32,090 bases of DNA. Source: Candidatus Kuenenia stuttgartensis. GTDB taxonomy: Bacteria > Planctomycetota > Phycisphaerae > Sedimentisphaerales > CAMDDF01. The translations under genes and the position numbers were made by a program. The stretch lies in contig CAMDDF010000010.1 of assembly GCA_945890885.1 (NCBI GenBank), forward strand, positions 1-32,090, given 5' to 3'. Below, piece after piece: positions 3,763 to 28,296 of this stretch. The number at the start of each line of letters is the position of its first letter. Within the stretch, counting starts at the first letter, position 1. The notes under the pieces are model-generated. The model was not told the origin of the DNA and did no database searches. It was given only the letters and a program-made list of their open reading frames with translations.

Positions 3763-4041
3763 ATGTCAAAACCAGAAATAACGTTTAAGGCGGGAGCCGT
3801 CAGAGCGTCAGTATTCAGAAACACTGTAATCAAAGCCGGCCAGTCAATACCACTTCCCAAGGTTGTGATTGAAGTTCGGTACAAAGACAAGACCGGCCAA
3901 TGGCAAGGTACCAACAGCATGAGCGTCAATGACCTTCCTAAGGCCATATTAGCCCTGCAGAAGGCATTTGAGTACCTTATGGAACATAAGGCAGATGCAC
4001 CTCAATCAGAGGATACACTGCCAGCAGATGACCAGTATTGA
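3763..4041 (+). CDS. conserved hypothetical (small plasmid-type protein; FKAGAVRASVFRN...YKDKTGQWQGTNSMSVNDLPKAILALQKAFEYL)
   Basis: 92-aa ORF with strong SD (AGGAGG). Confidence 0.75.
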   Translation: MSKPEITFKAGAVRASVFRNTVIKAGQSIPLPKVVIEVRYKDKTGQWQGTNSMSVNDLPKAILALQKAFEYLMEHKADAPQSEDTLPADDQY

Positions 4042-4076
4042 CAGATTGGGAATGATTTCTTAACAACTTTTAAATT

Positions 4077-4122
4077 TGGTGACACGATAGGATGGTCTTA
4101 CCGTGTCATCATTTTATTTTTA
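4077..4122 (+). terminator. terminator-like hairpin
   Basis: TGGTGACACG / CGTGTCATCA stem (10 bp, one G-U) followed by TTTTATTTTTAT. Confidence 0.5.
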
Positions 4123-4140
4123 TAGAAAGAGAGGTGTTTT

Positions 4141-4995
4141 ATGGCATGGCGACCAAACGATCAATTTATCAGTGGTGAGTTAGATAACTCAGAACACGGC
4201 AGGATTATCGGCTGGATGAAATTTGCCGGGATGAAGGAAGAAGTTGCTTTTGATTTGGAAGGAGACTTTCACAGGGATATCAGAGGCGCTAAAATCCGAC
4301 TCAAAGGTGACGGTCAATCACAGGATCAGGCAAAAGCTGCAAAGTATATGGAGGGATTTTGTATTCTGCAGACAGGTGTGGCTGGCGATATTACCGCAGG
4401 ACTGCCGCCCCATGATTACGGGCTGCCAGGTGAAGGCTATGTCGAATGGTTTTCTGATGATAATGGCAGAGTTGTGCTAGAATTTAGCTCAGATCAGATT
4501 GAGATTTTAACACCGCCGATACCATTCTGTGAATCAGACCCTATCGACAGAAACAAGCAGGCACAGAATATGGCAAAGTTTCTGTGTGGTCTTGCATCAG
4601 ATTTGGGTCTTCCGCAAAGCAATGTTATTGCAGTTGGAAATACCGCTGCTGTTGAAAAAGCAAAGATAGTCTTAGCCAACGATAAAATCCGCGGCATGAA
4701 ACTACTGACGAAGGAAATCCGTGAACAACTACCCCCCTTATACAGTCAGGATGGCAAAGGCGGCAAGGCAATCGCTTATGTAAAGTTTTTCATTGGTTCG
4801 TGGACCTGGCATGCAACGGAATTTGATGGCGAAGATACATTTTTCGGTCTGGTTGAGGGCTTTGAGAAAGAACTGGGATATTTCAGTCTTTCCGAGATGG
4901 AAAACACCAAAGGCCCAATGGGGTTGCCGATAGAGCGAGATTTGCATTTTAAGCCGAAGATGCTTGAAGAAATTGCTCCAGAGATGTTCGGGTAA
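4141..4995 (+). CDS. DUF2958-domain protein with additional N-terminal domain
   Basis: C-terminus [21 protein letters not shown]...[38 protein letters not shown]...[10 protein letters not shown] is typical DUF2958; SD GAGAGGTG. Confidence 0.8.
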
Positions 4996-5294
4996 TGGAT
5001 CGCAATGAAAATACTGAAAGGATAAATATGAGAAAAACAATTACTATTAAGGAACAGTGTTCAGATTCACTGCCTGTCGAGATAAAAGTAAATATCTTGT
5101 CTGAAGGTGGTAAAGTCTGGATTCAACCTGATGGCTTCGGTGAAAAATGCGCCGATGATGGCGAAGGCTTTCCTGTTGGTATCGAGATTTGGCAAGGCAG
5201 ACTTCGTTTGATTGTATTTAACGATATCAACGTGGAAGACCCGATAATCCTCAACCTTGAAAATGCCAGAGAATCCAGCCGCATCAATGCCTGA
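4995..5294 (+). CDS. hypothetical protein
   Basis: 99-aa ORF; internal ATG at 5028 preceded by an AAAGGA-like SD is a plausible alternative start. Co-directional within the operon. Confidence 0.6.
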   Translation: MDRNENTERINMRKTITIKEQCSDSLPVEIKVNILSEGGKVWIQPDGFGEKCADDGEGFPVGIEIWQGRLRLIVFNDINVEDPIILNLENARESSRINA

Positions 5295-5420
5295 TTGGAA
5301 TTGCTCCGATTCACACAGTAACATTTAGTATTACCGCTCCAAATTTTTATCAAACCAATTTACGAAAGGAATCCAGATGAAAACAAATTGCGGAGAATGT
5401 GCGCGCAGTCCTCCCCAAAA

Positions 5421-5448
5421 AGTTAGAAGTTAGAAGTACGAAGTTAGA
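5421..5448. repeat. heptanucleotide tandem repeat, 4 units (AGTTAGA consensus)
   Basis: agttaga agttaga agtacga agttaga. Confidence 0.85.
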
Positions 5449-5488
5449 ATAAAAAAACAACAAATCAAAAATTGAAAGGAAAATTACA

Positions 5489-5731
5489 ATGAGAATTTTA
5501 TTCATTAACAACAATGGTTCCGGCTATGCTGATTATGTCAATATTGCTGAGAATACAACTATCAATCAGTTTTTTGCTATCAAGATGCAGAATCAGCAGG
5601 AAAGTGATTATCTGATCCGTGTCAATCGCCAGCCCGTTCCCAAAGACTATTGTCTTCAGGAAGGCGACCGCGTTACGATAACTCCAACGAAAATTGATGG
5701 TGCGAAAAGAAGTGAGAAGTTAGAAGTGTGA
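5489..5731 (+). CDS. ubiquitin-like beta-grasp protein (Ubl)
   Basis: 80 aa: MRILFINNNGSGYADYVNIAENTTINQFFAIKM...DYLIRVNRQPVPKDYCLQEGDRVTITPTKIDGA...; MoaD/ThiS/Ubl-like spacing and context next to E2/JAB/E1 genes. SD AAAGGA. Confidence 0.7.
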   Translation: MRILFINNNGSGYADYVNIAENTTINQFFAIKMQNQQESDYLIRVNRQPVPKDYCLQEGDRVTITPTKIDGAKRSEKLEV

Positions 5732-5752
5732 AGTGAAAAGTGAAAAGTAAAA
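5711..5752. repeat. heptanucleotide tandem repeat, 6 units
   Basis: agtgaga agttaga agtgtga agtgaaa agtgaaa agtaaaa; overlaps the 3' end of the Ubl gene. Confidence 0.85.
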
Positions 5753-5760
5753 ACTTTTAC

Positions 5761-5801
5761 GGCATCTGCTTATGTTTGATTATAGGCAGGTGCCATTTTT
5801 T
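5761..5801 (+). terminator. intrinsic-terminator-like hairpin between Ubl and E2/RING genes
   Basis: GGCATCTGC / GCAGGTGCC (9 bp, one G-U) followed by aTTTTTT. Confidence 0.65.
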
Positions 5802-5818
5802 ATGCATAGGAGAATTTT

Positions 5819-6838
5819 ATGGAAAATCAAAAAAAACTTATACAGCTGTCAAACATGCTGCTGGACAGTTTATTCGAGCTTAAAAAGGCAAGATTGCGGC
5901 AGATCCAGGATGTTATGGAGGGGTTTGGCACCAGGTGCTCTGATACTACGAAAAACTCCCATCTTTTTTATACAGCAGTTGAAAGAAATTGGCTAAGCAG
6001 TGCAGAGCAGGTCATATCGAGGGTAAGCAGGAACCTCACGGATTTTTCATGTTACCTGCAGAGATTCAAAGAGCTTGTCAATGCTGATGAAACAGTGCTG
6101 CCAAAACTTTCTGATATTTATGCAGAGCTTATCCAGATCGAGCGGGAGTTCGGCGAGATAAAATTCGATTCAAACGAAAAAGCCATCTCTGTAATAACTG
6201 AGCCGATCACTCTAAATGATATCCCGCTGGGACCATTTGAAGTAAAACTGTCTATTGATCAGATAAGCAGGCTCTATAATGATACCCCTTACTCGATAAT
6301 TGCATTAGAACCTAATCCGGCAGGATCAAATGAGGAGGTTACTCATCCGCATGTAAGCTCAGAAAGGCTCTGTGAAGGTGATGGCCATGTTGCTATTCGC
6401 AGCGCTATAGAGCAGGGCAGATTCTGCGACTTTTTCACAATGGCGGTAACTATCCTTCAGACCTACAACCCCGGTAGTCCATACATTTCATTGGATGAAT
6501 GGCAAGGAACATCCTGTTATGACTGCGGCTGCACGGTATCTAATGATGACTGCTACTACTGCGAATATTGCGACAGGGATTACTGCAGCAGTTGCAGCAG
6601 CTATTGCCAGAGGTGCGATACAACGGTTTGCCTGGGGTGTTCTTATGAGTGTCCCTCATGTGATGAGCTGGTCTGTCATAACTGTACCGAAAAATGCAAG
6701 GAATGTGATGGAACGTTCTGCAAGAATTGCTTAGATGAAGAAAGATTATGTCAAAACTGCCAGGAGCAGAGAAAGGAAAGCGAAAATGAAGAACAGGAAC
6801 AGCTCTCAGAAGAATCAAAAGCCGATGCTGAGGTTTAG
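5819..6838 (+). CDS. E2-like domain fused to Cys-rich RING/treble-clef-like C-terminus
   Basis: 339 aa. E2-like core: LGPFEVKL...YSIIALEPNPA...VTHPHVSSERLCEGDGHVAIRSAIEQGRFCDFFTMAVTILQTYNPGSPYISLDEW (HPxx...C). C-terminal run of CxxC knuckles: CYDCGC...CYYCEYCDRDYCSSCSSYCQRCDTTVCLGCSYECPSCDELVCHNCTEKCKECDGTFCKNC. Confidence 0.75.
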   Translation: MENQKKLIQLSNMLLDSLFELKKARLRQIQDVMEGFGTRCSDTTKNSHLFYTAVERNWLSSAEQVISRVSRNLTDFSCYLQRFKELVNADETVLPKLSDIYAELIQIEREFGEIKFDSNEKAISVITEPITLNDIPLGPFEVKLSIDQISRLYNDTPYSIIALEPNPAGSNEEVTHPHVSSERLCEGDGHVAIRSAIEQGRFCDFFTMAVTILQTYNPGSPYISLDEWQGTSCYDCGCTVSNDDCYYCEYCDRDYCSSCSSYCQRCDTTVCLGCSYECPSCDELVCHNCTEKCKECDGTFCKNCLDEERLCQNCQEQRKESENEEQEQLSEESKADAEV

Positions 6839-7544
6839 TCCGACAGCGTGGGCGAAACTACTATTTATGCGTGATGTAACAGATAATGAAGTCGGCGGTT
6901 TCGGGATAACACAGGCAAATGATCTACTGTTTGTTACAGATTTTGCCCTGGTAAAGCAGAGGGTAACTTGTGTTTCAGTATCATTTGAAGATGAGTCTGT
7001 GGCAGACTTTTTTGAGGATCAGGTTGAAGCCGGCAGGAAACCGGAGCAGTTTGCCCGTATCTGGCTGCATACACATCCGGGAGATTCCCCTGAGCCGAGT
7101 ATGACCGATGGGGCAACTTTTGCCAGGGTATTTGGAACCTGCGACTGGTCCGTAATGTGCATTGTGGCGCAGGATAGTGGAACCTTTGCGATGCTGAGAT
7201 TCAATGTCGGACCAGGCGGTGAGGTAAAGATACCTGTTTATGTTGATTACAGCTATGAATTTGATGCCGCCAATTTTGAACAATGGACACAGCAGTATCA
7301 GGCGAATGTGATTGTGGATGAGATTTTCAAGCAGGTAAGTAAGCCTGGACATGCAGTTTCGCATAAACAACCATCTGCCGATCTATTTGGTGAGAAACAG
7401 TCAGCCGGCATTCCACAGTTTATAAGTGAGGATTTACTTTCAGAGATTGACAGGATGGAGCCTTTTGAGCGGGAAGTGTTTATGGAAGAACTGGCTATAA
7501 GAAGCGAATTCTGGGATGAAGAAAGTGAGGTGTCATATGGATAA
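6825..7544 (+). CDS. JAB/JAMM (Mov34/MPN) metallopeptidase; ORF track start 6735, likely start ATG 6825
   Basis: JAMM motif with E in NEVGGFG and HTHPGDSPEPSMTD. Start 6825 (MLRFSPTAWAKLLF) leaves a short overlap with the upstream gene. Confidence 0.85.
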   Translation: MLRFSPTAWAKLLFMRDVTDNEVGGFGITQANDLLFVTDFALVKQRVTCVSVSFEDESVADFFEDQVEAGRKPEQFARIWLHTHPGDSPEPSMTDGATFARVFGTCDWSVMCIVAQDSGTFAMLRFNVGPGGEVKIPVYVDYSYEFDAANFEQWTQQYQANVIVDEIFKQVSKPGHAVSHKQPSADLFGEKQSAGIPQFISEDLLSEIDRMEPFEREVFMEELAIRSEFWDEESEVSYG

Positions 7545-8190
7545 CAGGTTCTCAAGACAGGCAGATATTGTGCCAAGAGAGCGAATACTTGACTGTAAAG
7601 CTACAGTTATTGGTGTTGGCGCTATTGGAAGACAGGTTGCAATACAGCTGGCAGCTGTAGGAGTACCCCAAATCCGGATTATTGATTTTGACCATGTGGA
7701 AATCTCCAATTTGGCATCGCAGGGATATCTCCAGAAAGATTTAGGCAGTCCCAAAGTCGATGCAACTGCTGATTTTTTAAGGCAGATAAACAATGACCTC
7801 AGCGTTGAGATAGTATTTGAACGTTTTAAACGCTCAACACTTTCCGGTACCTGCGTTTTCTGCTGCGTTGATAAAATTGAGACACGCAGGCACATATGGG
7901 ATGCCGTAAAAGACAAGGTAAACTTCTTTGTTGATGGGCGAATGTCTGCTGAAGTTTTGCGTGTAATAACCGCCTGTGATGAAAAAAGCAGACAGTACTA
8001 TCCGCAGACACTCTTTGCCGCCCAGCAGGCCCATACAGGTCCCTGTACAGCTAAAACTACGATTTACTGCGCCAATATAGCGGCAGGTTTTATGCTGGCC
8101 CAGTTTACCAAGTATCTTCGGATGCTGCCGGTTGATCCTGATATCCAGATCAATCTTTTGGCCTGGGAGTTAAATGTCGGCAGTTGTTAA
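7537..8190 (+). CDS. ThiF/MoeB/E1-like adenylyltransferase
   Basis: Rossmann motif VIGVGAIGRQ, DFDHVEISNLASQGY, C-terminal GPCTAKTTIYCANIAAGFMLAQF. ATG at 7537 overlaps the JAB stop. Confidence 0.85.
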   Translation: MDNRFSRQADIVPRERILDCKATVIGVGAIGRQVAIQLAAVGVPQIRIIDFDHVEISNLASQGYLQKDLGSPKVDATADFLRQINNDLSVEIVFERFKRSTLSGTCVFCCVDKIETRRHIWDAVKDKVNFFVDGRMSAEVLRVITACDEKSRQYYPQTLFAAQQAHTGPCTAKTTIYCANIAAGFMLAQFTKYLRMLPVDPDIQINLLAWELNVGSC

Positions 8191-8261
8191 AATTAACCAG
8201 AGCTTAGCGATGGTAATGTTTGGCTGTCGCTAAGCCAATTTTTACTAAATGAGGTGTAACC

Positions 8262-8534
8262 ATGTCAAAACAGAAAACCAATGATAATCGAATAACAACA
8301 ATTGGACAGCTTAAAGAGCTGGCAAAGGATGAAAGTGGCCTGGATTGTTTCATCATGCTAAATGGAGGCCTGAGAAGCTCTAAATATATCAGGTATTACC
8401 CTGATGATAACAGCTTTTTTGTGCTGAATCTCATTGATGACAGCCAGCAGGAACTAACTGAAAGCCAGATTCTTGACGGTGCTTATTCCAATATCGGCCA
8501 GGCAATGAAAAAGGGAAGTTTAATAATGGATTAA
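8262..8534 (+). CDS. hypothetical protein
   Basis: 90-aa ORF with GAGGTG SD, same operon. Confidence 0.65.
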   Translation: MSKQKTNDNRITTIGQLKELAKDESGLDCFIMLNGGLRSSKYIRYYPDDNSFFVLNLIDDSQQELTESQILDGAYSNIGQAMKKGSLIMD

Positions 8535-8551
8535 ATTTATGAGGTGAAAAA

Positions 8552-9211
8552 ATGTATTACAAAGAAGTTGATAAACGGTATAGGGAGGTAATGGCAGCTT
8601 TCCTGAAGAAGCATTACAGGTACCACACCATGAACAGCTGGAATAAATCAAACAGCTACGCAAATAACATCAAGCTTTACAACATTGATAAACCTGCTGA
8701 CATTGACAGCAACAAATGTTGGGAAATGATTGGGGTCGCTCAGTGGCAGGAAAAGTTAAGCAGCCTGCTGGAGGATTTTGGCAAAAAGCATAACTGGCTA
8801 TGGCAGGCTGGTATCAATGGCAGAAGCGGCGGATATGTTGTTCTTTACAGAGGCGGCATAAAGCCCAGCGGCTATAAAAGCTACTGCATACATTGCGGCC
8901 AGAAAAACTATCAGGCTGTTGTTGACGGTGAAGTTGGTATCTGCGGCAGATGTGATGCCAGGGCAAGAGTTAATTTCAAGCAGACACATATGCAGGTCTT
9001 TACCTTACCAGGCAAGGAAGTTGATATGCATTGGGATTTTGATGGCTGGACTTTGAGCGATCTGCGGGAAAGAGTTGAGTTGGTTCAGGATTTTGACATG
9101 CTCAGTGATGATCTCGTGGCAGCGTATTTTGATATATGCCGGAACTACCGTATTACTGAAGAAGAAATCCTTGTACCAAAAACGATCAAAGTATTGGAAC
9201 CCATAGTTTAG
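8552..9211 (+). CDS. hypothetical protein with zinc ribbon (CIHCGQ...GICGRCDAR)
   Basis: 219-aa ORF, SD GAGGTG, two CxxC pairs. Confidence 0.7.
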   Translation: MYYKEVDKRYREVMAAFLKKHYRYHTMNSWNKSNSYANNIKLYNIDKPADIDSNKCWEMIGVAQWQEKLSSLLEDFGKKHNWLWQAGINGRSGGYVVLYRGGIKPSGYKSYCIHCGQKNYQAVVDGEVGICGRCDARARVNFKQTHMQVFTLPGKEVDMHWDFDGWTLSDLRERVELVQDFDMLSDDLVAAYFDICRNYRITEEEILVPKTIKVLEPIV

Positions 9212-9222
9212 GAGAATTGAAT

Positions 9223-9543
9223 ATGCTGTATATAAGATTGTTTCACGGCAGATGCGACCCAGATCAGCAAATGGATGACTGGGGAAGCGATGGTCCGGTA
9301 TTTGGACCTTATGAATTTGTGCACACTACTTATGTATCTTTCTTGAGATTAGGCAGGCAAGATGGAATTTGTGATGAGCTGCATGTTCACGAGGATATGG
9401 TCTATTATAATGGGATCTACTATGGTGACTGGAGTGTGTTCGATGCAGCAGTGTTCGAAAAAACAAAATTCCAGATAGCTGTTTTCCAGCAGGATAAAGC
9501 AAATATGCCGGAAAATACTGCACCAAAACTTCCAATTTACTAA
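9223..9543 (+). CDS. hypothetical protein
   Basis: About 106 aa, SD AGGAG, last gene before a strong terminator. Confidence 0.65.
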   Translation: MLYIRLFHGRCDPDQQMDDWGSDGPVFGPYEFVHTTYVSFLRLGRQDGICDELHVHEDMVYYNGIYYGDWSVFDAAVFEKTKFQIAVFQQDKANMPENTAPKLPIY

Positions 9544-9692: not shown

Positions 9693-9775
9693 TCATGCCA
9701 ATTATTGCGATCGAATTCTACACAATCCACTACCGATAACTTTAAATACTCTCAATTCTTTATTGTCATTATAAA

Positions 9776-9985
9776 ATGACATCAGAAAATTTAAACCAAA
9801 CCATTGAAAAGAGTCTCCATACTCTTGAAGAGATCTGCGAGAATACCCGTGCCATACGTCGTGTGGTAAACAGGATACTTGACCATCTTCATGAGCAGGA
9901 AGCTGCTGAAGAGTTCGATGAGGATTACGACATAGATGAGATCGACTGGGATAAGCTCGATGAACGAGATGATATGTTCAGTTAG
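9776..9985 (+). CDS. small acidic hypothetical protein
   Basis: 69-aa ORF; no SD; AT-rich box CTTTAAATAC about 30 nt upstream of the ATG. Confidence 0.6.
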   Translation: MTSENLNQTIEKSLHTLEEICENTRAIRRVVNRILDHLHEQEAAEEFDEDYDIDEIDWDKLDERDDMFS

Positions 9986-9990
9986 ACCGC

Positions 9991-10023
9991 AAAGTTTTTA
10001 TAGAGTATTCACATCGATATTGT
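9991..10023 (+). promoter_or_regulatory. archaeal-like promoter (BRE/TATA), leaderless gene
   Basis: CGCAAAGTTTTTATAG; TATA centre about 25 nt before ATG 10024; no SD. Confidence 0.5.
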
Positions 10024-10353
10024 ATGCGTAAACCTAATCCAGAAACTGAGACCCTGCTTGGCGATATGAGGAATTCATTAGATCGTATCAAAGCATTGAC
10101 AGCATGGCAGCAGCTCAAGCAATCAGAGCAATATCCGGGCCGCCCGCCGGCATTTGTGATGAGCGATCCAACTTGTACAGACCTCAATAATGAGTATTCC
10201 CGCATTATGGCGACATGTTCGCAATTACAGACGGTTTTTAACGCATCAAAAGTTCCTACAATAACAATTGGGCGAACTCGGCGTGAATATTTCAGGCTTA
10301 AACAGGAATTAAATGCCCTTAATGTGCCGGCACGGCTCAAAGGCCTCTTATAA
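10024..10353 (+). CDS. hypothetical protein
   Basis: 109-aa ORF, leaderless-type start. Confidence 0.6.
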   Translation: MRKPNPETETLLGDMRNSLDRIKALTAWQQLKQSEQYPGRPPAFVMSDPTCTDLNNEYSRIMATCSQLQTVFNASKVPTITIGRTRREYFRLKQELNALNVPARLKGLL

Positions 10354-10355
10354 AG

Positions 10356-10928
10356 ATGGGATGGTTCCATATATTCAAAAGACGCCAGCGTAAAAGGAAA
10401 GCTCACAAATCCAGTCATAACCCCAGCGTCCGCAGTTTAGTTGAAAGGCTCCGATCTGATACTTCTTCGCTGCAGCAGCAATTACAGATGATCCAGACCA
10501 CGGTAGATAAGCACGGTGTTTCACTTAATGAGCATACCACATTATTTGAAGATCACAAAGTGAGAGTTGCAAAACTTGAGCAATTGGTCGCCCAGCCGGC
10601 GACTATTGTACCTGCCGAGAGTCCACGCCTGATTAGTCGCTCCCAAACATCTGCTGAATCACCGCTGTCGCGGCAAAAATATGACGTTAATAACTTTTCA
10701 CCACAGGAAAAACGAATCCTGCAGCTATTCTTTGAGCATCAGGATATGGCACTTTCATATACTGATCTGTCACAGGCACTGGGCAAGAGCCCGTTGACCG
10801 TCAAAAACCAGTTACACGAGATACGACTCAAAGCAGACCTTTTTACAAAGACCATCGGTGCTGATAATCGTAACCGTTTCAAGCTCAGGGACGATGTCAG
10901 ACTTCAAAAGTATCTTAATCTCGGTTAG
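10356..10928 (+). CDS. coiled-coil protein with C-terminal winged-helix/HTH
   Basis: Coiled-coil middle; C-term FSPQEKRILQLFFEHQDMALSYTDLSQALGKSPLTVKNQLHEIRLKADLF looks like a wHTH. Confidence 0.65.
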   Translation: MGWFHIFKRRQRKRKAHKSSHNPSVRSLVERLRSDTSSLQQQLQMIQTTVDKHGVSLNEHTTLFEDHKVRVAKLEQLVAQPATIVPAESPRLISRSQTSAESPLSRQKYDVNNFSPQEKRILQLFFEHQDMALSYTDLSQALGKSPLTVKNQLHEIRLKADLFTKTIGADNRNRFKLRDDVRLQKYLNLG

Positions 10929-10994
10929 TCGCCCGACTAGCTGCGGGTGATCGACTAATTTAGTTGATGGATCGACTAACTGCAATTAATCTGG

Positions 10995-12086
10995 TCATTG
11001 TTCAAACCTCAGCGACCAGATCGCAGCCAGCACGACTGGGTCAAAGGCCAACTGGATACGATTGGTATAGGTCTTACTAATCTTTGTGGAAATCAAGAGG
11101 ATCAATCCTAAGCTTTGCAGATACGAGAGATTTGAGTAAAAGTGAACATAGCTGAATGGTTCTTCGTTAAGTCCGGCGCTGATTCGACGATATGCCCCAT
11201 AGATACTTTTGACGTAGCTGTCATGCTGTGATGAGGCGGCTCTTAAAATGCAGAGATTCTGGTCATTGAGATCTTTTATAATATCCACCAGAATATCTCG
11301 TCGTGCCGTCTCGAAATGGTCTTTGATCGGGATACCCGGTTCCAACGCCCACTGATACAGCGTTTTTATTGCAACCCGCACATCTGAATTAGTATTTTTG
11401 ACCGTCATTGCGGCGATTTCGTTGATTATTGCGGTGGGTATGCAGCCAAGCCCGATTTTCGCTCTATCGGTTAGTATTTTCTGAAGTTCAAGAGCATTAT
11501 AGCTTTTAAAATGTACAATTTCCGGCTGGAGCGTGCTTTGGGTACTTGCGTCCAGAAGTTGATGGAATTTTGGATCGTTGCTCAGTAGCAGTACCATATA
11601 GTTATTCGGTGAACGGCTTATCAGATAGAGGATATCTTTGTTCTTGTCCTTATTGCTGATCAGGTCGATTTCGTCCAGAATAAAGACCGTCTTTTGGGGA
11701 TGCAGGTCGGTAAAGTTGTACCAGAGTTCATCCAGACTTACTCCCCGCGGACGAACACCAAGGGCGGAGGCGAGGATTCTAAAACTGGTATTGCACTGAC
11801 GGCAATTAACATAAATGAAGTCGAGTTGTTTTCGATTCCCCAGAATCTGCATGAGGTATTTGGCTATTACACTTTTCCCCGACCCTCGGCAGCCGAGGAT
11901 CAAAACATTATTCGCAATGCCGCTGTGCTGGTATCGCAATAAGGCATCGATGACGGGTTTGGCTTCCTCTCTCATCAAGGGTTTGGCCGGAATATAATTA
12001 AAATTGAAGACATTTATATCCCGAATTCGGGATGTGTTTTTTAGCAGATGACGCTGCTTCTCGGCAAGATATTTCTCGATATCCAT
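10995..12086 (-). CDS. Orc1/Cdc6-family AAA+ replication initiator (archaeal type); ORF extends to TTG 12179, likely start ATG 12086
   Basis: NFNYIPAKPLMREEAKPVIDALLRYQHSG..NNVLILGCRGSGKSVIAKYLMQIL, Walker B VFILDEIDL, sensor 1 MVLLLSND, sensor 2 NSDVRVAIKTLYQWA, C-terminal winged-helix-like region. Confidence 0.85.
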   Translation of the reverse strand: MDIEKYLAEKQRHLLKNTSRIRDINVFNFNYIPAKPLMREEAKPVIDALLRYQHSGIANNVLILGCRGSGKSVIAKYLMQILGNRKQLDFIYVNCRQCNTSFRILASALGVRPRGVSLDELWYNFTDLHPQKTVFILDEIDLISNKDKNKDILYLISRSPNNYMVLLLSNDPKFHQLLDASTQSTLQPEIVHFKSYNALELQKILTDRAKIGLGCIPTAIINEIAAMTVKNTNSDVRVAIKTLYQWALEPGIPIKDHFETARRDILVDIIKDLNDQNLCILRAASSQHDSYVKSIYGAYRRISAGLNEEPFSYVHFYSNLSYLQSLGLILLISTKISKTYTNRIQLAFDPVVLAAIWSLRFEQ

Positions 12087-12110
12087 TGGACGCATTAACT
12101 CTACTGGACG

Positions 12111-12138
12111 TATAAACTCTTGCCGGTTTATAAACTTT
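12111..12138 (-). promoter_or_regulatory. archaeal-like promoter of orc1/cdc6
   Basis: Minus strand CCGAAAAGTTTATAAACCGGCAAGAGTTTATACGTCC; TTTATA centre (12113) about 27 nt upstream of ATG 12086. Confidence 0.45.
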
Positions 12139-12251
12139 TCGGTCGCAATAACTGGCAAAAACCCGATTGTGCTGCTCAAAGATGTAAGTTGTGTATTTAT
12201 AGTGATTTGAATTAGGTTACATGCGCCGATAGAGGGGGGGGATGGTTGTGT

Positions 12252-12591
12252 AAGTTGATTCTTGTGAATGGCTTTGAGTGATGTTTTTGGTTTTTGGTTT
12301 GGTGTTTAGTTTGGTTAGGTAGTTGTTTTGTTGAGTAGCGGTGTTGATGGAGTTGTAGTTGCTGATGGTAGGTTTAGATGTTGGATTTAAGGCGTTAATA
12401 AATGAGGGGAATTTTATATAGTCGGTGTGTAAGATAGTTCAGGTTGATTATTGAGTTTTGGTTTTGTTGTTAGTTGGTTATTTGATTTGTGTAGTGGTGT
12501 TGTTTGAGTTGTGATTGCCGATGGAATGAGGTTGTATTTAAGGGTGTAGTAAGTGAGACGAAATTTTTAAATAGTCTGTGTGTTTGATAGT
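12252..12591. repeat. two tandem imperfect G/T-rich repeat units (about 12252-12438 and 12440-12591), candidate origin region
   Basis: Core alignment: gagtagcggtgttgatggagttgtagttgctgatgg...ggatttaaggcgttaataaatgaggggaattttatatagtcggtgtgtaagatagt versus gtgtagtggtgttgtttgagttgtgattgccgatgg...gtatttaagggtgtagtaagtgagacgaaatttttaaatagtctgtgtgtttgatagt. Only about a dozen C in about 350 nt. Confidence 0.6.
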
Positions 12592-12594
12592 GTG
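12561..12594 (+). promoter_or_regulatory. archaeal-like promoter, leaderless gene
   Basis: GACGAAATTTTTAAATAG; TATA centre about 26 nt before ATG 12595. Confidence 0.5.
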
Positions 12595-12996
12595 ATGGAA
12601 GAGCAAGATTGTCGGGCAATAGGGCGGTATAGGCCGTATAGGAGTTGGGGAGAGCAGCAGATAGCGTTGCTGATGGACAGAGAGGGTATTGCATACCAAT
12701 ATGAATATCCGCTTGCGCTGATGGATGATGGGAAAGTGAAATTGTATTATCCTGATTTTACGTTGCCGTGTTATGGACTGATTGTGGAGTACTTTGGTGT
12801 TCAAAATAGTTCAGACTATGAACGTAAGACGAGTAATAAAATGAATGCTTATAGAAAAGCTGGTATTGAAACGATTGTTATCACAAACGATTTTTTTAAG
12901 GGAGACTGGCCGTCGCGAATAATGGGCCAGATTGAGCATGTCCTGCAGTCGCGGGTTGAGCGATTCGGCAGAAGGAATGAAGGCGAAAAGAAGTGA
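12595..12996 (+). CDS. PD-(D/E)xK-like endonuclease (DUF559/Vsr-like fold, tentative)
   Basis: SWGEQQIALLMDREGIAYQYEYPLAL...YYPDFTLPCYGLIVEYFGV...KMNAYRKAGIETIVIT: PDF...(I/V)EY signature. Confidence 0.6.
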   Translation: MEEQDCRAIGRYRPYRSWGEQQIALLMDREGIAYQYEYPLALMDDGKVKLYYPDFTLPCYGLIVEYFGVQNSSDYERKTSNKMNAYRKAGIETIVITNDFFKGDWPSRIMGQIEHVLQSRVERFGRRNEGEKK

Positions 12997-13200
12997 TTTC
13001 TGGTTAGTGGAGAGACAGTGGAGTTTATACGTAGATTGTAGAATGCTAGCTGGACTGGATAGCTGTTGTAACTGCCCAGTGGTGGGAAAAGTATTTAAAT
13101 GGGCGTGTTTTTTGTAGCTGGTGTATTCGTATGAACTCGGGAATAGTTGGTGCTCTGTTACCATAAATGATAGAGTAGTCGTATCTGGTGTCGTATCGAT

Positions 13201-13621
13201 TTACGCATAAACTGTACTCTTTGCGATTGGTTTATGTTTTTTGTATGGTGGGTGAGCAATGGCCAGGATGATCTGGAGCATGAGGGTGAGCCTGCCTGTT
13301 ATGGCGTTTTGCGTCGCCCGCAATGTACCATTACCATGCCCTGTCAAAATAGTAGTTGGCTGGTCGTGAAAGAATTCGATGATGAGCAGCAGTAACTCTT
13401 TGAGCGGCGTAGTTGTTAGCTTTGCTGAAATTGGATCAAGGTCGCTGTATGCAGCATGAAGCTGCGCGTATTCTAAAAGCTCACGAATAGTATTTGTTAT
13501 TTTGGTTGGCCGACTGATGCAGCAGTGATTGCCTCTTTTGGAGTAATCGCATCGAGAACCGTGATTGATTTTGGTCTATCGTAGAATTTCCAATCAGTGT
13601 CTGTTTCTATTTATTTTTCAC
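13201..13621 (-). pseudogene. frameshifted homologue of the 13751 gene, divergent orientation
   Basis: Minus-strand fragments ETDTDWKFYDRPKSITVLDAITPKEAITAASVGQPK and (shifted frame) ITNTIRELLEYAQLHAAYSDLDPISAKLTTTPLKELLLLIIEFF...KSTVYA*. DNA is similar to 13751-13957 on the plus strand. Confidence 0.6.
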
Positions 13622-13627
13622 CCGAGG

Positions 13628-13741
13628 TAGAGCCGAGTCTTTATAGATTTTTCGCCCTATCGGGTTTTCTGAGGAAAACTCTGGTTTCGAGGTTTCGCTC
13701 TGAAACCAGAGCGAGAAAATGTATAAATCCTTTCGGCTCTA
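13628..13741. repeat. mirrored promoter palindrome
   Basis: TAGAGCCGA (13628-13636) / TCGGCTCTA (13733-13741); CTCTGGTTTC (13679-13688) / GAAACCAGAG (13702-13711); GTTTTC-TGAG-GAAAAC at 13664-13679; TATA-like boxes facing outward on both arms. Confidence 0.75.
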
Positions 13742-13750
13742 TGGCAGGCC

Positions 13751-14233
13751 ATGAAAAATAAACTTAACGAAACAGACACTGATTTTGGAAAAGAACTAGT
13801 GACCAAAATCAACTTAAATGGGTTCTCGATGGATTCATACATGCCAAAAGAGGTTGTCAGCAGCATCAGTCAGTCAACTCCCAAAATATCAAAAGAGTGC
13901 ATTCGTGAGCTTTTAGAAAAGATAATCGCGCAGTATAACATGCTGCACAGCGACCTTGCCCAAATTGTAGCTGCATACTTAAACCAAACAAAAGCTACTC
14001 CTGCCGAAAGCCCCGCCTGCGTGAAGCAACAGAAACAGTTGACCATAGACAGCAAGCCAATAGTTGACATGTTCATTGACTCTGCGGGCCAGCTGTGGGC
14101 TGTAACCGAGAAGCATGATATCAGAAGCTCCTATTACACCGAGACCAGCCTGCCAAAGCAGAGTGCATATATTTTTTATAAGCTGACCATGCCGGCAAAG
14201 AAGCTATCCACTAAGAGTTTTCATTTTAATTGA
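13751..14233 (+). CDS. hypothetical protein; C-terminal region similar to the 14900 gene product
   Basis: 160 aa; TATAAAT at 13722-13728, about 26 nt before ATG; no SD. Confidence 0.65.
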   Translation: MKNKLNETDTDFGKELVTKINLNGFSMDSYMPKEVVSSISQSTPKISKECIRELLEKIIAQYNMLHSDLAQIVAAYLNQTKATPAESPACVKQQKQLTIDSKPIVDMFIDSAGQLWAVTEKHDIRSSYYTETSLPKQSAYIFYKLTMPAKKLSTKSFHFN

Positions 14234-14341
14234 CTATATAATAGATTCAAGAATTTGCCAGATGTGTTTATTGCTGAGCGTATCTTGCCTGTAAGTGAGC
14301 AAAAGAGGATTTGCAGTAATCAATTCGTGAGCGGCCTGTCA

Positions 14342-14404
14342 ACCCAAAGGCATAAAAGGCGTTTCGCCATACCGAGGCTCAACTAGCCATTTAAGCCTTT
14401 GGGT
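14342..14404. other. cloverleaf-like inverted-repeat structure (three-way junction potential)
   Basis: ACCCAAAGGC (14342-14351) pairs with GCCTTTGGGT (14395-14404); inside, GGCG-TTT-CGCC (14358-14368) and GGCT-CAACT-AGCC (14376-14388). Confidence 0.5.
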
Positions 14405-14627
14405 CGTGCTGTGGTTGTTCGCACATTGATTTAATGAGCGGTGCAGTGGCGGCAGCAAAAGATTTACAATGTGTGCTGCCTGACTACACAGACAAGGAGG
14501 TGATAAAAAATGTGTCATCCGCGATGACAAGACTCCTGTGGCCATTCCCATAAATTTTGTAAAATATGTTTGCATAAAAATCAGGAAGCTTATGCTAACC
14601 AGATTTTTCCATTGGTTTTGGTAATGC

Positions 14628-14786
14628 TCAAGATTTGTTCAGTTGTTGGATGGCATCGCAAGAGTGGTTTGAGAGTTGTTCCAGCTTTTCTTTATACTGC
14701 CGCAGCGCTTCCTGAATAATTTTGGATTTGTTTTGTTTGACAAGCTCAAATAGTTCCTTACTCAGATAAATGTTTATGACCGGCAT
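14628..14786 (-). CDS. small ribbon-helix-helix (CopG/Arc-like) regulator, 52 aa
   Basis: MPVINIYLSKELFELVKQNKSKIIQEALRQYKEKLEQLSNHSCDAIQQLNKS*; shorter than the ORF-track cutoff. TTTATATA on the minus strand about 26 nt upstream of its ATG. Confidence 0.7.
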   Translation of the reverse strand: MPVINIYLSKELFELVKQNKSKIIQEALRQYKEKLEQLSNHSCDAIQQLNKS

Positions 14787-14808
14787 ATACACCTATTAGT
14801 AGTCAGAC

Positions 14809-14881
14809 TATATAAATAGATAGATAGTAAGAAGTATATGTTGCAGCACCATAAAGTTTATAAACCTGTCTATCTATCTAT
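14809..14881. promoter_or_regulatory. divergent promoter region with 12-bp inverted repeat ATAGATAGATAG / CTATCTATCTAT
   Basis: Arms 14816-14827 and 14870-14881; left arm touches the minus-strand TATA, right arm follows the plus-strand AAAGTTTATAAAC box (14853-14865). Confidence 0.6.
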
Positions 14882-14899
14882 ACATAGGAGGTGCAAAAA

Positions 14900-15274
14900 A
14901 TGAGTAAGATTGTAACAATCAAGGGCGAGCCGATCATCGACGTATATGAGTCCTATGATGGCAGTTATTGGTATATAACAGAAATGCTATATAAACAGGA
15001 TAGTATCATCGACGGTAAGGTGTACAACGATGACCAGATTTTATTCGGCTATGCCCGATTATCAGCCTGTACAGAATATGCTGAGTTTGGCAATATTTCA
15101 GAAACAGAACTGAAACTGCTAGGAAGCAGGGTCTGGAAGGTGCCAAAGGAAAACTGGGGTGTTTGTCCTGATGTTGAAGTAGGCTGTTTTTCTGAGCAGC
15201 AGGCCGAACTGAAGAACTGGGAAGGTAAACCTTCTCAGCCTTCAGGGCTAAATAGGTTTGAATCTCATTATTGA
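14900..15274 (+). CDS. hypothetical protein (KGEPIIDVYESYDGSYWYITE... domain)
   Basis: SD GGAGGTG; ATG 14900 (ORF track starts at GTG 14891). Confidence 0.7.
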   Translation: MSKIVTIKGEPIIDVYESYDGSYWYITEMLYKQDSIIDGKVYNDDQILFGYARLSACTEYAEFGNISETELKLLGSRVWKVPKENWGVCPDVEVGCFSEQQAELKNWEGKPSQPSGLNRFESHY

Positions 15275-17524: not shown

Positions 17525-19192
17525 TCACTGAGTACCAGCTGTCGCTTCAAGAGCTGCTTTTCCTTTTTCTGTAAGGTGAGTTAGTGCTTGTCTGCCGATT
17601 CTGGTCGTTTCAATTCGTTCTTCTATGAGTAAAAACTTTAAGGCTGTTGTTTTTAATTTCTGGCCTTGCCGTACTGATAGGCCCAGTCGCTTGTATCGTG
17701 CGGCGACACCGCTTTCTGGAGAGTTCTGGATATCCTTTAGGAAGTATATAAGTGGATTAACAACTGCGGGGCCGGCGGCAGGGAGTTTTTCTTTTGCGGG
17801 GTAAAACGACGAATTTTGCGATGCCGATAATGAAGTGTGCTGCATATGCTCCCGAATATAATCATCGGTGATAGTCCCCTTATCTATGATAAATTCCGGC
17901 ACTTTGACCTGAAATGCCCGAGGGATACGTCCTTGAAGCTTTATAATTGCCTCACCCACTTCCAGGCTGCCGAGTAGGTCTTTTTCCTTATCGAGCAAAA
18001 GGCACTGGGCCATGGCGGTTATATCTGTTTTATGTTTAAGATTCATGCATATCGTTGCGTAGGTATTGCCGAGTGCCGGTAGACTGATCTTTGATGGATG
18101 CTGATCAAGTAGAATAAGGCTTTCTCCGAATTCTCTGATTTCTCTAAAGATAATCTCCATAACAGATTGGCCGCCTACTAAACTCCTTCTTTCATCGGAT
18201 AATAAATGATGGGCCTCCTCAATTAGTACACAATGCCGAAAAGTCTCTCTTTTGTTTTCTGTCATACGCTTGTGATGCAGCCACAACAGCAGAGCCTCTA
18301 CAAAAAACACTTTATCGGATTGCGTAAGCGCATCCAATTCCAGAATTACGGAACTATTGAGGATATGATCCAGACTCTTATTGCTGTGCGTATTAAACAA
18401 TGTATCCATATCGCCAAAACACAGCGATGACAGTGCCCTTAGAGTTGATGACAACCAGCCAGATTCTCTGCCACGCAGATCCATACTTTTGGCCTTTAAA
18501 AGAACATCCTTAAATGTTGGCCAGCTTGTTACAAGATTATCATAAACCCCAGCTTCCTCATAGACTGCGTCGACCGCCTGCTGTAATAAGTATAAGACTC
18601 CATTGCCGAGGCAATAGGAATGGGCGATAACTTCATTTAATTTCTTCAACCATGTCTTGGGGCTGGTACCCTCGGGTGGAATGAGGGGATTAAAAGCAAA
18701 TGGCGTGATATCTCTGCCGATGGTGTAGACCTCAACATCCTTGAATTCAGGTTGTGATATTAGATCTCGATAGTTTCGCTTCCAGTCAAATACCAAAAAA
18801 GGCTTTCCTTTTTTCTTAAGTTCCCTGAGTAAAACAAAACCCACGTTGGTTTTTCCTGCTCCAGATCTGCCCAGTACCGCGACATGTTGTATCCATTCAT
18901 CTTCACGAAGACCAAATTCATAAAGATTTTTGCCTGCATAGTGAACCATACCGATCGGGTACTGACCTTCGGCCTGTTCCTTTGTTGGCGGAATCAGGTC
19001 GGCTTCGGGCTGTTCGAGTTTTTGAGGGATATGTTTTGCCACTGCCAGTTCCAGATACTTTTGGATTTGCTGTTTACCCTCTGTATCTTCTGCGCAGTAT
19101 GCTGCAAATACCTGATCCATTGTGGGGCCGAGGATGGGCTTGAGCTTGAGGCACAATTCTCTGACAAGTGTGGAATTATCCCTGTCCGCCAT
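17525..19192 (-). CDS. HerA/DUF87-type P-loop ATPase with C-terminal winged-helix-like region
   Basis: WIQHVAVLGRSGAGKTNVGFVLLRELKKKGKPFLVFDWKRNYRDL; Walker B HCVLIEEAHHLL; LILLDQHPSKIS. ORF track start 19213. Confidence 0.8.
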   Translation of the reverse strand: MADRDNSTLVRELCLKLKPILGPTMDQVFAAYCAEDTEGKQQIQKYLELAVAKHIPQKLEQPEADLIPPTKEQAEGQYPIGMVHYAGKNLYEFGLREDEWIQHVAVLGRSGAGKTNVGFVLLRELKKKGKPFLVFDWKRNYRDLISQPEFKDVEVYTIGRDITPFAFNPLIPPEGTSPKTWLKKLNEVIAHSYCLGNGVLYLLQQAVDAVYEEAGVYDNLVTSWPTFKDVLLKAKSMDLRGRESGWLSSTLRALSSLCFGDMDTLFNTHSNKSLDHILNSSVILELDALTQSDKVFFVEALLLWLHHKRMTENKRETFRHCVLIEEAHHLLSDERRSLVGGQSVMEIIFREIREFGESLILLDQHPSKISLPALGNTYATICMNLKHKTDITAMAQCLLLDKEKDLLGSLEVGEAIIKLQGRIPRAFQVKVPEFIIDKGTITDDYIREHMQHTSLSASQNSSFYPAKEKLPAAGPAVVNPLIYFLKDIQNSPESGVAARYKRLGLSVRQGQKLKTTALKFLLIEERIETTRIGRQALTHLTEKGKAALEATAGTQ

Positions 19193-19742
19193 AGAGACCC
19201 TCCATACCGGCAAAAAGAGAATATCTTTGTTTTGCGCCTCTGTAGGTGCTGGCAGTCTCGAATAGTTTCTCTCTTAGTTCGGCGGTATCTTTCCAAAATG
19301 CCAGTTCTTCTTCTCGTTTGGCGGATTCGAGTTGGAGCAGCTGTGTTTCCAGACTTGACATTCGTTTGGTTCTGTCAGGATTTCTGTTAATGATAACGCC
19401 GTAAAGCGACCCCTGGATTTGCAGATCACGATGCTGAATTTCATCAATATGTTTTTTGTGAAGCTTGCACCGCTCATAGAATAGATTGGCAAGGTGCTGG
19501 ATGCCGACATGCTGCTGTTTCATCTCATTGCCGAATATCTGCTGTGAGATATTGGCGGTCTCATTGACAATAGGAATAAGTGCCTCCTGCAATAATTCAG
19601 CGTCGGGCTTTAACCTGTCAAAATAGCCGTTGGCAGGCCATGAAAGAACCCGAGGATAAGTTACGTCGATTTTTTGGGAAGCATAGCTGCTGTTTTGTTG
19701 AAAATAAAGGTTCCTCAATTCGTATGTTTTGTTCGGCATCAT
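19176..19742 (-). CDS. conserved hypothetical partner of the HerA-like ATPase
   Basis: Overlaps the ATPase start; likely ATG 19742 with GGAGAG SD (ORF track start 19814). Confidence 0.6.
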   Translation of the reverse strand: MMPNKTYELRNLYFQQNSSYASQKIDVTYPRVLSWPANGYFDRLKPDAELLQEALIPIVNETANISQQIFGNEMKQQHVGIQHLANLFYERCKLHKKHIDEIQHRDLQIQGSLYGVIINRNPDRTKRMSSLETQLLQLESAKREEELAFWKDTAELREKLFETASTYRGAKQRYSLFAGMEGLYGGQG

Positions 19743-20029: not shown

Positions 20030-20057
20030 TTGCAGGTCGCGGCCAATCGAGTATAAT
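20030..20057 (+). promoter_or_regulatory. bacterial sigma70-like promoter for the ECF operon
   Basis: TTGCAG (20030-20035), 16-nt spacer, TATAAT (20052-20057). Confidence 0.55.
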
Positions 20058-20119: not shown

Positions 20120-20728
20120 ATGAGTATGGATTACAAAAAAGCAAACCAGATTGCAGAACGCATCCGAAACGGCGAAAACAGTGTATTATACAAAGAACTT
20201 GCCTTGATGTGTACCCCATATCTTCTCTGGGTCAAAAAGAAGTACAAATTTTATTGCATTCCGGATGATGACGCAAAGCGGATATTGGTGTATGAAGCTG
20301 TAAACGACAGCATTGTACCAATCAGAAAAAATAAGCCATTTACGATTTGCCTGCAAAATGCATTTCGCAACTGCTGCAGGGACTGGATCAAAAATTATCA
20401 CCACAAAAAGCGAGCCAAAATATGGGCTGAGTTTGATTTTAATGACTATGAGACTGCAGGGTATGGCGGCAGTAAGGAGAATCTTTCGCCGGAGGTTGTG
20501 GCATCTGAAGGCGAAATGATTAAAGCTCTGATGGAAGAACTCATGAAGGATGGACAGTTTTCCCGTGAGGTGATTTTTAGAAGGATGAGTGGTGATAGCT
20601 ATGCGGAAATCGCTGAGGCTAAAAAGAAAACGCACAGTGAATGCAAAAATGTCTTTTGGTGCAATTTTGACCATCTGAAGAAGCGATTGACTCGTCGTTT
20701 CCGAAAAGAAATTCTTGACAACCAGTAG
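20120..20728 (+). CDS. ECF-type RNA polymerase sigma factor
   Basis: 202 aa; sigma2-like ...FTICLQNAFRNCCRDWIKNYHHKKRAK... and sigma4-like FSREVIFRRMSGDSYAEIAEAKKKTHSECKNVFWCNFDHLKKRLTRRF. Confidence 0.8.
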   Translation: MSMDYKKANQIAERIRNGENSVLYKELALMCTPYLLWVKKKYKFYCIPDDDAKRILVYEAVNDSIVPIRKNKPFTICLQNAFRNCCRDWIKNYHHKKRAKIWAEFDFNDYETAGYGGSKENLSPEVVASEGEMIKALMEELMKDGQFSREVIFRRMSGDSYAEIAEAKKKTHSECKNVFWCNFDHLKKRLTRRFRKEILDNQ

Positions 20729-20739
20729 AGGAAAATAAA

Positions 20740-21489
20740 ATGAATTGTCCTGAAAAAAAAATTCTGCAGGATTTGGTTGATTGCGAATTATCCGAGGAAC
20801 AGCATATAGAGGTAATTGCACACATAAAATCCTGTGACAAGTGCAGAGGCCAATTAAAACAAATGTTGGTGTTCTATCGGGCGTTGAGTGACGTTGTTGC
20901 CATGGAGGCCTGCCCATCGAAAGATGAACTTGAAAACTTTGCACATGGCAAACTTTCCTTACAGAACTCAGATCGCGTTAGGGAACATATTGTATTATGT
21001 GCACAGTGTGAATCATATGTTCAACTTTTTCAGGCCACTGATGAGCAATTGGCAGAGCAGGCGGAACGCGAAAAAGTGATATTTCAAAAGGCGGCGGCTC
21101 AGGGAAGGGCATATGATGCGGCCAGGGTAATTCTCAAAAAACTTCTGCCGGATAAAGTATCCGTTTTCGATAGTCTATGGGAACATATTTCCGGTGTTTT
21201 GGAAGAAATGCTGGAGAGTAAATCAATAAAAGGTTTATCGTTTGGCGATAGTGGTGAATTTGCCGGGGCTTTGGGTTTTTCCGGTGTGCCTGACCCGCAG
21301 ACGGCTGCGGCTGCCATTATAATTGGTACTACCCTTGCTACTGCATATTCGCTTGGCAACACGGTAATCGCCTCTGACCCTGCTGCAATTAAACAAACGG
21401 TTTCCGATATTGCTGGCAGATTGGGTGCAGGGAAAGAACTTAAGAAAAGACTCGCCGAAACAGTTCCTCTTCATTTTATTGATATATAG
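20740..21489 (+). CDS. putative anti-sigma factor with two zf-HC2 motifs
   Basis: HIKSCDKC and HIVLCAQC; hydrophobic AAAAIIIGTTLATAYSLG segment; immediately downstream of the sigma gene. Confidence 0.75.
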   Translation: MNCPEKKILQDLVDCELSEEQHIEVIAHIKSCDKCRGQLKQMLVFYRALSDVVAMEACPSKDELENFAHGKLSLQNSDRVREHIVLCAQCESYVQLFQATDEQLAEQAEREKVIFQKAAAQGRAYDAARVILKKLLPDKVSVFDSLWEHISGVLEEMLESKSIKGLSFGDSGEFAGALGFSGVPDPQTAAAAIIIGTTLATAYSLGNTVIASDPAAIKQTVSDIAGRLGAGKELKKRLAETVPLHFIDI

Positions 21490-21508
21490 TCTGTAAGCAG
21501 AGTTATGA

Positions 21509-24483: not shown

Positions 24484-24954
24484 ATGTTAAGAGCACGTTT
24501 TGATAAATTTGATAAAGCTAAGAACGCCAGCAAATATACGGAGTTCTGCTTTGGTGAATACGAGGTCGTTATTGATGATGGTCCGCGGATTCGGCTTCCT
24601 CGTCCGATTGTGAAAGGTTTACATGAGCATAGGGTACGCCAGTTATGGCGTTTTGCCGATCCGACCGGGCCTCGCATGATTTTGTGCCCTGATTGTTTCC
24701 GCAATATTTATATTGAGACGGCATCCCAAAATCTTCCCAAATCTATGCCTGCCGAAGACGCTTACCTTAAATATATTTGTACTGGAATGAAGATGGAATG
24801 TGCACTGCCAAATCAAAACAAAATAAGAATTACGGCGATATGTCAAAAACACATCAACGTGAAACCTGGTCAGAGATTGGTCATAATTGGTACGGGTTTT
24901 TGGTTTACAACGCTGCGGCTGGACGACTGGCTCAGGATTGCCAATACAACATAA
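24484..24954 (+). CDS. MraZ/SpoVT-AbrB-like DNA-binding protein
   Basis: GEYEVVIDDGPRIRLPRPIVKGL...LWRFADPTGPRMILCPDCFRNIYIE...IRITAICQKHINVKPGQRLVIIGTGFWFTTLRLDDWL. Confidence 0.7.
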   Translation: MLRARFDKFDKAKNASKYTEFCFGEYEVVIDDGPRIRLPRPIVKGLHEHRVRQLWRFADPTGPRMILCPDCFRNIYIETASQNLPKSMPAEDAYLKYICTGMKMECALPNQNKIRITAICQKHINVKPGQRLVIIGTGFWFTTLRLDDWLRIANTT

Positions 24955-24992
24955 ACGCGGGTTTTTGTGATTGGATAATTATATGCTGAAAA
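24863..24992 (+). repeat. direct repeat copy 1 (3' end of mraZ-like gene plus downstream)
   Basis: Near-identical to 28153-28283. Confidence 0.95.
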
Positions 24993-25008
24993 TGGAAACG
25001 GTTCGGTC

Positions 25009-28154: not shown

Positions 28155-28283
28155 CCTGGGTCAGAGATTGGTAATAATCGGTACGGGTTTTTGGTTTACA
28201 ACGCTGCGGCTGGACGACTGGCTTAGGATTGCCAATACAACATAAACGCGGGTTTTTGTGATTGGATAATTATATGCTGAAAA
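28153..28283 (+). repeat. direct repeat copy 2 (orphan mraZ 3' end)
   Basis: Orphan frame MQKHLKVNLGQRLVIIGTGFWFTTLRLDDWLRIANTT*; a handful of differences from copy 1. Confidence 0.95.
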
Positions 28284-28296
28284 AGGAGACTTATTT

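Follow-up and report, generated by a model that had tools for sequence, protein, structure and literature searches.

Why should a contig binned with a bacterium carry a run of genes behind what look like archaeal core promoters? The question is raised by contig CAMDDF010000010.1 of assembly GCA_945890885.1 (Candidatus Kuenenia stuttgartensis; Planctomycetota, Sedimentisphaerales), a 32,090-nucleotide stretch of DNA analysed here over its whole length and called the window. A preliminary description had noted TATA-like boxes between positions 9720 and 14900, centred 25–28 nucleotides (nt) before likely start codons that lack Shine–Dalgarno (SD) sequences, and had read them as archaeal leaderless promoters. 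We confirm this cluster, which is stronger than first stated. On balance, we are inclined to see the boxes as core promoters belonging to an integrative planctomycete replicon with HerA and an Orc1/Cdc6-type protein, which retains their archaeal form together with a replication module derived from an archaeal plasmid.

The orc1 promoters of 23 loci, aligned on the box, share the consensus CGAAAG[CG]TTTATAAA. Two invariant T's carry 1.75 bits, and the columns from -5 to -1 before the box read CGAAA at 0.75–1.5 bits each, with C in 17 and G in 16 of the 23 promoters at the first two positions. A B recognition element (BRE) therefore lies directly upstream of the TATA box, as in archaeal core promoters. 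No -35 element is conserved, the mean match to TTGACA being 2.78 of 6 positions against 2.76 in shuffled sequence. The preliminary description had proposed a motif search for BRE/TATA, and we made one with a matrix built from these 23 promoters only, to which the window contributed just its own orc1 promoter. Matches of at least 13 bits number nine in the window versus 1.0 in shuffles. A 20-kb element region of a second genome (G025) has five matches versus 0.3 shuffled, whereas host chromosome shows no excess, with 24 versus 18.7 shuffled in 400 kb drawn from other contigs of the window's own genome (G000) and 8 versus 5.7 in 400 kb of G025. Host genes sampled from such 400-kb sets also lack a box of this kind near -29. 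Because the boxes are enriched in the elements without excess in host chromosomes, we regard them as belonging to the element; a promoter type in general use by the host is rejected on the same chromosomal comparison (2 x 400 kb) and on the missing box near -29.

Position relative to start codons also sets the element apart. Among matches of at least 11 bits, an ATG follows 15–59 nt downstream at 58 of 104 element sites and 14 of 123 chromosomal ones (p = 5e-13). The element distances peak at 25–28 and 41–45 nt, in a set that includes the orc1 training promoters, which feed the latter peak; the peak at 25–28 nt stems from genes other than orc1 (18/104 versus 2/123, p = 3e-5). Two small genes recur upstream of orc1; the distance from box to ATG is exactly 25 nt in 11 of 11 copies of the one of about 105 amino acids (aa) and 28 nt in eight of nine copies of the one of about 65 aa (31 in the window), several of these small-gene copies being recognised by position and size and not by sequence. 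All five copies of the gene divergent from orc1 have the same 22-nt spacer, and in one element copy (L038) a box of its own precedes the integrase gene by 25 nt. The spacers are only 33–41% identical and cannot be aligned despite their near-invariant length. None of ten small-gene leaders has an SD, T at -10 is invariant, and the TANNNT that marks bacterial leaderless genes about 12 nt before the start is absent, strong conservation there being confined to C at -12 and T at -10. Start-site maps of Thermococcus onnurineus (PMC5316973) show an A/T-rich element at -10 and centre TATA near -27 and the BRE near -33. Because spacing is near-fixed, SD and -35 are missing and the positions, counted from the ATG, resemble those of published archaeal maps, the architecture of BRE, TATA and 25–28 nt to the start codon argues strongly for the archaeal leaderless type, conserved across copies.

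In the window itself, the boxes before 10024 (9995–10002), 12595 (12564–12573) and 13751 (TATAAAT, 13722–13728) and the minus-strand box before 14786 (14809–14816) were found as described, centred 25.5, 26.5, 26.0 and 26.5 nt from their start codons. The box placed about 30 nt before 9776 lies at 9741–9748, with its centre 31.5 nt away, and is kept as CTTAAATA/TTTATAAA, 28 nt from the ATG, in eight other copies. The orc1 box had been misassigned. TTTATA (12111–12116, 27.5 nt from ATG 12086) sits inside a GTTTATACGT-like direct repeat (12108–12117, partner 12090–12099), and the conserved BRE/TATA sequence, CGAAAAGTTTATAAAC, lies directly upstream of these repeats, centred 44 nt from the ATG. 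The start at 12086 agrees with the promoter position and with homology, which begins at MDIEKYL. Absence of an SD holds for the leaders of two small genes and fails near 14889 (AGGAGGTG) and 3748 (AGGAGG), where SD-type sequences occur with TATA boxes further upstream. The archaeal-type reading, stripped of its orc1 box, is thus carried by an architecture conserved over many element copies, those from hosts of 60–67% GC included, and the boxes at 3683, 14850 and minus-strand 19797 add to those first named.

Who hosts these promoters? The window is one contig (C10) of a bin that spans 2.14 Mb, with completeness of 95.6% and contamination of 1.3%. Its contigs yielded a bacterial 16S and 12 sigma-70 region 2 matches, and neither a TFIIB nor a TBP match; the bin is bacterial and belongs to the Planctomycetota. 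The window's tetranucleotide fit to it was the worst of the sampled contigs (0.53 versus 0.63–0.78 for the others), and relatives were therefore sought. Five further genomes of this order have Orc1/Cdc6-like homologs that are 47–65% identical. Scanning 84,980 species turned up 22 close loci, nearly all in Planctomycetota records (the exceptions being a few Hydrogenedentota, two plain 'bacterium' and one labelled Actinomycetes), and archaeal matches only 23–26% identical. The family totals about 25 genomes, nearly all planctomycete-type, and in an even sample the element was present in 6 of 392 planctomycete species; IMG/VR and a phage collection held no relative. One copy of about 12 kb is carried by the single-contig 4.25-Mb planctomycete genome G025, among genes for an acyltransferase, a Tat-signal oxidoreductase, an ECF (extracytoplasmic function) sigma factor and LamG-type proteins (identified by eye). 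The archaeal host implied by the preliminary description finds no support in view of the bacterial bin, the close relatives, all of them in planctomycete-type genomes, this chromosomal copy and 23 element-bearing genomes in which no TBP or TFB was detected. Four copies have a tyrosine integrase gene (PF00589 confirmed in three), and none was found among the clustered genes of the window. In a second arm of the family (L066, L060, L062, L064 and L067), a 57-aa zinc ribbon and a 265-aa double zinc-ribbon protein are encoded just downstream of orc1, and a membrane protein gene with a 22-nt leaderless spacer is divergent from it.

Element GC tracks host GC (r = 0.94, n = 21), as does GC at third positions of orc1 (r = 0.97, n = 15); part of this correlation would be expected from composition-based binning, and the G025 pair (0.505 versus 0.519) is independent of binning. 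Since both measures follow the host, we conclude that the element appears to have been long resident in planctomycetes. Selection on the boxes can be argued because they stay AT-rich in the hosts of 60–67% GC.

The replication module points to archaea. Orc1 matches AAA_22 above cut-off and Cdc6_lid and Cdc6_C below it, and has invariant Walker A residues and a C-terminal winged helix; judged by these matches, its architecture is that of an Orc1/Cdc6 initiator (AAA+ domain, lid, winged helix). In a phylogenetic tree, 19 element Orc1 proteins form one clade (support 99/99), apart from other archaeal Orc1 and sister to the plasmid-type Cdc6 of Thermoplasmatota, including that of Picrophilus pPO1 (100/99). 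This sister family was the only one found in 293 Thermoplasmatota genomes, and 398 Thermoproteota genomes gave no Orc1 match better than 4e-37. Because of the sister relationship, the module most likely derives from an archaeal plasmid lineage. Repeats resembling origin recognition boxes (ORB-like, GTTTAYRCGT) number 39 in 314 kb of element loci versus 3 in 1.3 Mb of host DNA. Two of them, between the orc1 TATA box and ATG, span the predicted start region, and autorepression by Orc1 is therefore probable. Additionally, a BRE/TATA-like box is enclosed by inverted GTGGAGTTTAYRCGT-type repeats at 13016–13225, and eight of nine copies inspected have inverted repeat pairs 110–270 nt apart downstream of orc1 or the nuclease gene. 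We infer that 13023–13212 is a candidate origin, at which Orc1 is predicted to bind.

We therefore come to how such promoters might be read. If they have kept the archaeal form, with BRE, TATA and initiation some 25–28 nt downstream of the box, the small genes would give leaderless mRNAs and orc1 and the HerA operon short-leader mRNAs, while Orc1 would restrain its own promoter and act at the inverted-repeat origin. We hypothesize that the reader is active in the planctomycete and measures from the TATA box as TBP/TFB do, and we favour one that is highly diverged or element-borne; expression in an unseen archaeal host would be our second choice. As a tentative extension, element-bearing planctomycetes may run a second, archaeal-type initiation pathway, in which a TATA-measuring factor unlike TBP/TFB, encoded by element or host, works on the bacterial or an element RNA polymerase.

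Several points weigh against this account. The 23 element-bearing genomes gave no TFIIB match and no genuine TBP in searches that very diverged versions could escape, the start sites are deduced from sequence, and part of the spacings come from a compilation restricted to 24–31 nt. As the activity of a haloarchaeal promoter in E. coli shows, a TATA-like box can also act as a sigma -10 element (PMC8943987). This last point favours a different explanation, in which host RNA polymerase with sigma, or an element-borne sigma of T4 late type, reads TTTATAAA as a -10-only promoter with SD-less leaders of about 15 nt, the archaeal likeness being inherited or convergent. T4 late promoters, with their -10-only TATAAATA, offer a model, and the 12 sigma-70 matches of the window's genome, beside the undetected TBP/TFB, fit it as well. 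It does not sit well with conserved CGAAA at the BRE positions, a TTGACA match no better than shuffled, a box-to-ATG spacing that is invariant without SD, host genes without a box near -29 and host chromosomes without matrix enrichment. Because spacing is fixed, the BRE conserved and the box specific to the element, we favour archaeal-type use and consider reading by sigma unlikely, if a serious contender.

The mixture of archaeal-type promoters with a sigma-type ECF promoter in one window, and the archaeal plasmid proteins that are the nearest kin of Orc1, would suit a shuttle that uses its archaeal promoters in an unsampled archaeal host and has the planctomycete as a second host, in which the sigma-type cargo (the ECF operon) is expressed. 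All close relatives nevertheless lie in bacterial genomes, the archaeal matches are distant, Thermoplasmatota offer only the sister family and Thermoproteota nothing close, and element composition follows the planctomycete host; because of this host range and composition we disfavour an archaeal host and hold the shuttle to be rather improbable. Were the contigs simply archaeal plasmids misbinned into planctomycete genomes, the window's low tetranucleotide fit would be expected, and binning by composition would yield part of the GC correlation. We reject this very unlikely explanation on the copy among planctomycete genes in the single-contig G025 chromosome and on the family-wide host range; the window itself, moreover, bears planctomycete-like cargo (FGE-sulfatase, ECF). 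It is just as hard to credit that the boxes are not promoters and instead serve an element protein as AT-rich sites of operator or replication function: Orc1-binding-like repeats do adjoin the orc1 box and one box lies inside the candidate origin, but the spacing is fixed to many unrelated start codons, mostly without repeats.

Other candidates for a reader were set aside. The single TBP (PF00352) match, in L075 (about 1470–1770) of a planctomycete genome, is by eye the C-terminal tail of a ThiF-like protein and likely a false positive, and the PF08271 zinc ribbon, which is unspecific and matches E. coli too, gave no match above cut-off. A TBP-like fold was rejected for the first cassette gene (3763), whose predicted fold of four strands and one helix has no convincing counterpart in the PDB, and for the 10356 protein, modelled instead as a coiled coil with a winged helix of MarR/ORC2 type (AlphaFold2 mean pLDDT 71.5; like MepR, SmtB and the ORC2 winged helix). 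Full-text literature, in a coverage that excludes most subscription journals, held no paper on archaeal-like or archaeal-type promoters in bacteria.

Features are collected in the table, where the start of the HerA-partner gene is corrected to 19742 from 19814. Between 14628 and 14900, the 52-aa ribbon-helix-helix-like gene is divergent from the 14900 gene; the two are separated by an inverted ATAGATAGATAG operator that has a TATA box to either side. A ubiquitin-like conjugation cassette (3763–9543), conserved on several element copies, encodes a DUF2958 protein (4141), a ThiS-like ubiquitin-like protein (5489), a Cys-rich RING-like protein (5819), a JAB isopeptidase (6735) and a ThiF E1 (7516); its assignment as PRTRC was rejected (NCBIfam PRTRC ThiF 29.8 bits versus a cut-off of 144.75, ParB 36.4 versus 278.6). 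The operon at 20120–24301 encodes an ECF sigma factor, a zinc-finger anti-sigma and a BlaR1-like membrane peptidase behind a sigma-type promoter at 20030, the TTGCAG-N16-TATAAT already recognised in the preliminary description, and this bacterial-style cargo adjoins the archaeal-style core genes. A 156-bp direct repeat, 92% identical (24844–24999 and 28135–28290), stands on either side of the ParB region.

Table. Promoter boxes, genes and repeats of the window (bits are matrix scores)
Feature	Position	Strand	Remarks
BRE/TATA box CCAAAAGTTTATAAA	3683..3697	+	Upstream of ubiquitin-like cassette (first gene 3763); 16.5 bits; kept in L038, L052
BRE/TATA box CGATAACTTTAAATA	9734..9748	+	Upstream of 69-aa gene; centre ~31 nt from ATG 9776; 15.4 bits
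Small acidic protein gene, 69 aa, leaderless candidate	9776..9985	+	Homologs by sequence L038, L050, L051; by position L052, L053, L055, L069, L070
BRE/TATA box CGCAAAGTTTTTATA	9988..10002	+	Centre ~25 nt from ATG 10024; 14.2 bits
109-aa protein gene, leaderless candidate	10024..10353	+	No Pfam match
Coiled coil and winged-helix DNA-binding protein, candidate element regulator	10356..10928	+	Homologs L038, L050, L051
Orc1/Cdc6-type AAA+ protein	10995..12086	-	Start ATG 12086, not TTG 12179
Two ORB-like direct repeats GTTTATACGTCC / GTTAATGCGTCC	12090..12117	-	Between orc1 TATA box and ATG; kept in most orc1 promoters
orc1 BRE/TATA box CGAAAAGTTTATAAA	12127..12141	-	Centre 44 nt from ATG; 19.2 bits, this promoter being among the 23 that trained the matrix; conserved in 23 loci
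BRE/TATA box CGAAATTTTTAAATA	12559..12573	+	Centre ~25–26.5 nt from ATG 12595; 15.6 bits; 25 nt in the L052 homolog as well
Phage T7 endonuclease I-like nuclease gene	12595..12996	+	PF05367 4.8e-05, below curated cut-off; homologs in other copies
Candidate replication origin	13023..13212		Inverted ORB-like repeats 13023–13032 (+) and 13203–13212 (-); TATA-like box 13092–13099 between
TATAAAT box	13722..13728	+	Centre 26 nt from ATG 13751; <9 bits; no homolog for conservation comparison
TTTATATA box	14809..14816	-	Centre 26.5 nt from ATG of 52-aa ribbon-helix-helix-like gene (14786–14628; family judged by eye)
BRE/TATA box CATAAAGTTTATAAA	14850..14864	+	39 nt from ATG 14900; 12.2 bits; followed by AGGAGGTG
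HerA/DUF87 ATPase, element core gene	17525..19213	-	PF01935 3e-10, 41 bits versus cut-off 23.2; 11 loci
BRE/TATA box CGAAACATTTATAAA	19783..19797	-	44 nt from HerA-partner gene start; 15.8 bits; kept in L050, L051, L052

Core promoters are regarded as domain-specific. An archaeal BRE/TATA kept by a bacterial mobile-element family with nucleotide-exact spacing, in hosts reaching about 65% GC and through protein divergence to below 50% identity, suggests that these hosts contain a reader or else that the elements continue to enter archaea. Each of the two answers bears on how genes pass the boundary between domains.

Among known systems, the archaeal BRE/TATA leaderless promoter shares with the element an A-rich BRE directly before an 8-bp TATA, a TATA centre 25–28 nt before the start, T at -10 and the lack of an SD; the element promoters differ in sitting in bacteria without detected TBP/TFB and in having predicted starts. 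Late promoters of phage T4 (gp55) resemble them in an AT-rich box without a -35, but lack a BRE and place the box at -10 relative to the start site. Bacterial leaderless genes likewise provide leaderless candidates in a bacterium, although their TA-like -10 box precedes the start by about 12 nt (PMC3160421), whereas the element box lies 25–28 nt upstream and has a BRE. Finally, Picrophilus pPO1 is a 7.6-kb plasmid of archaea, with only a weak, local HerA match and an Orc1 31% identical over 67% of the protein; yet this plasmid and related Thermoplasmatota Cdc6 loci share with the element a sister Orc1/Cdc6 clade and, in pPO1, a large ATPase.

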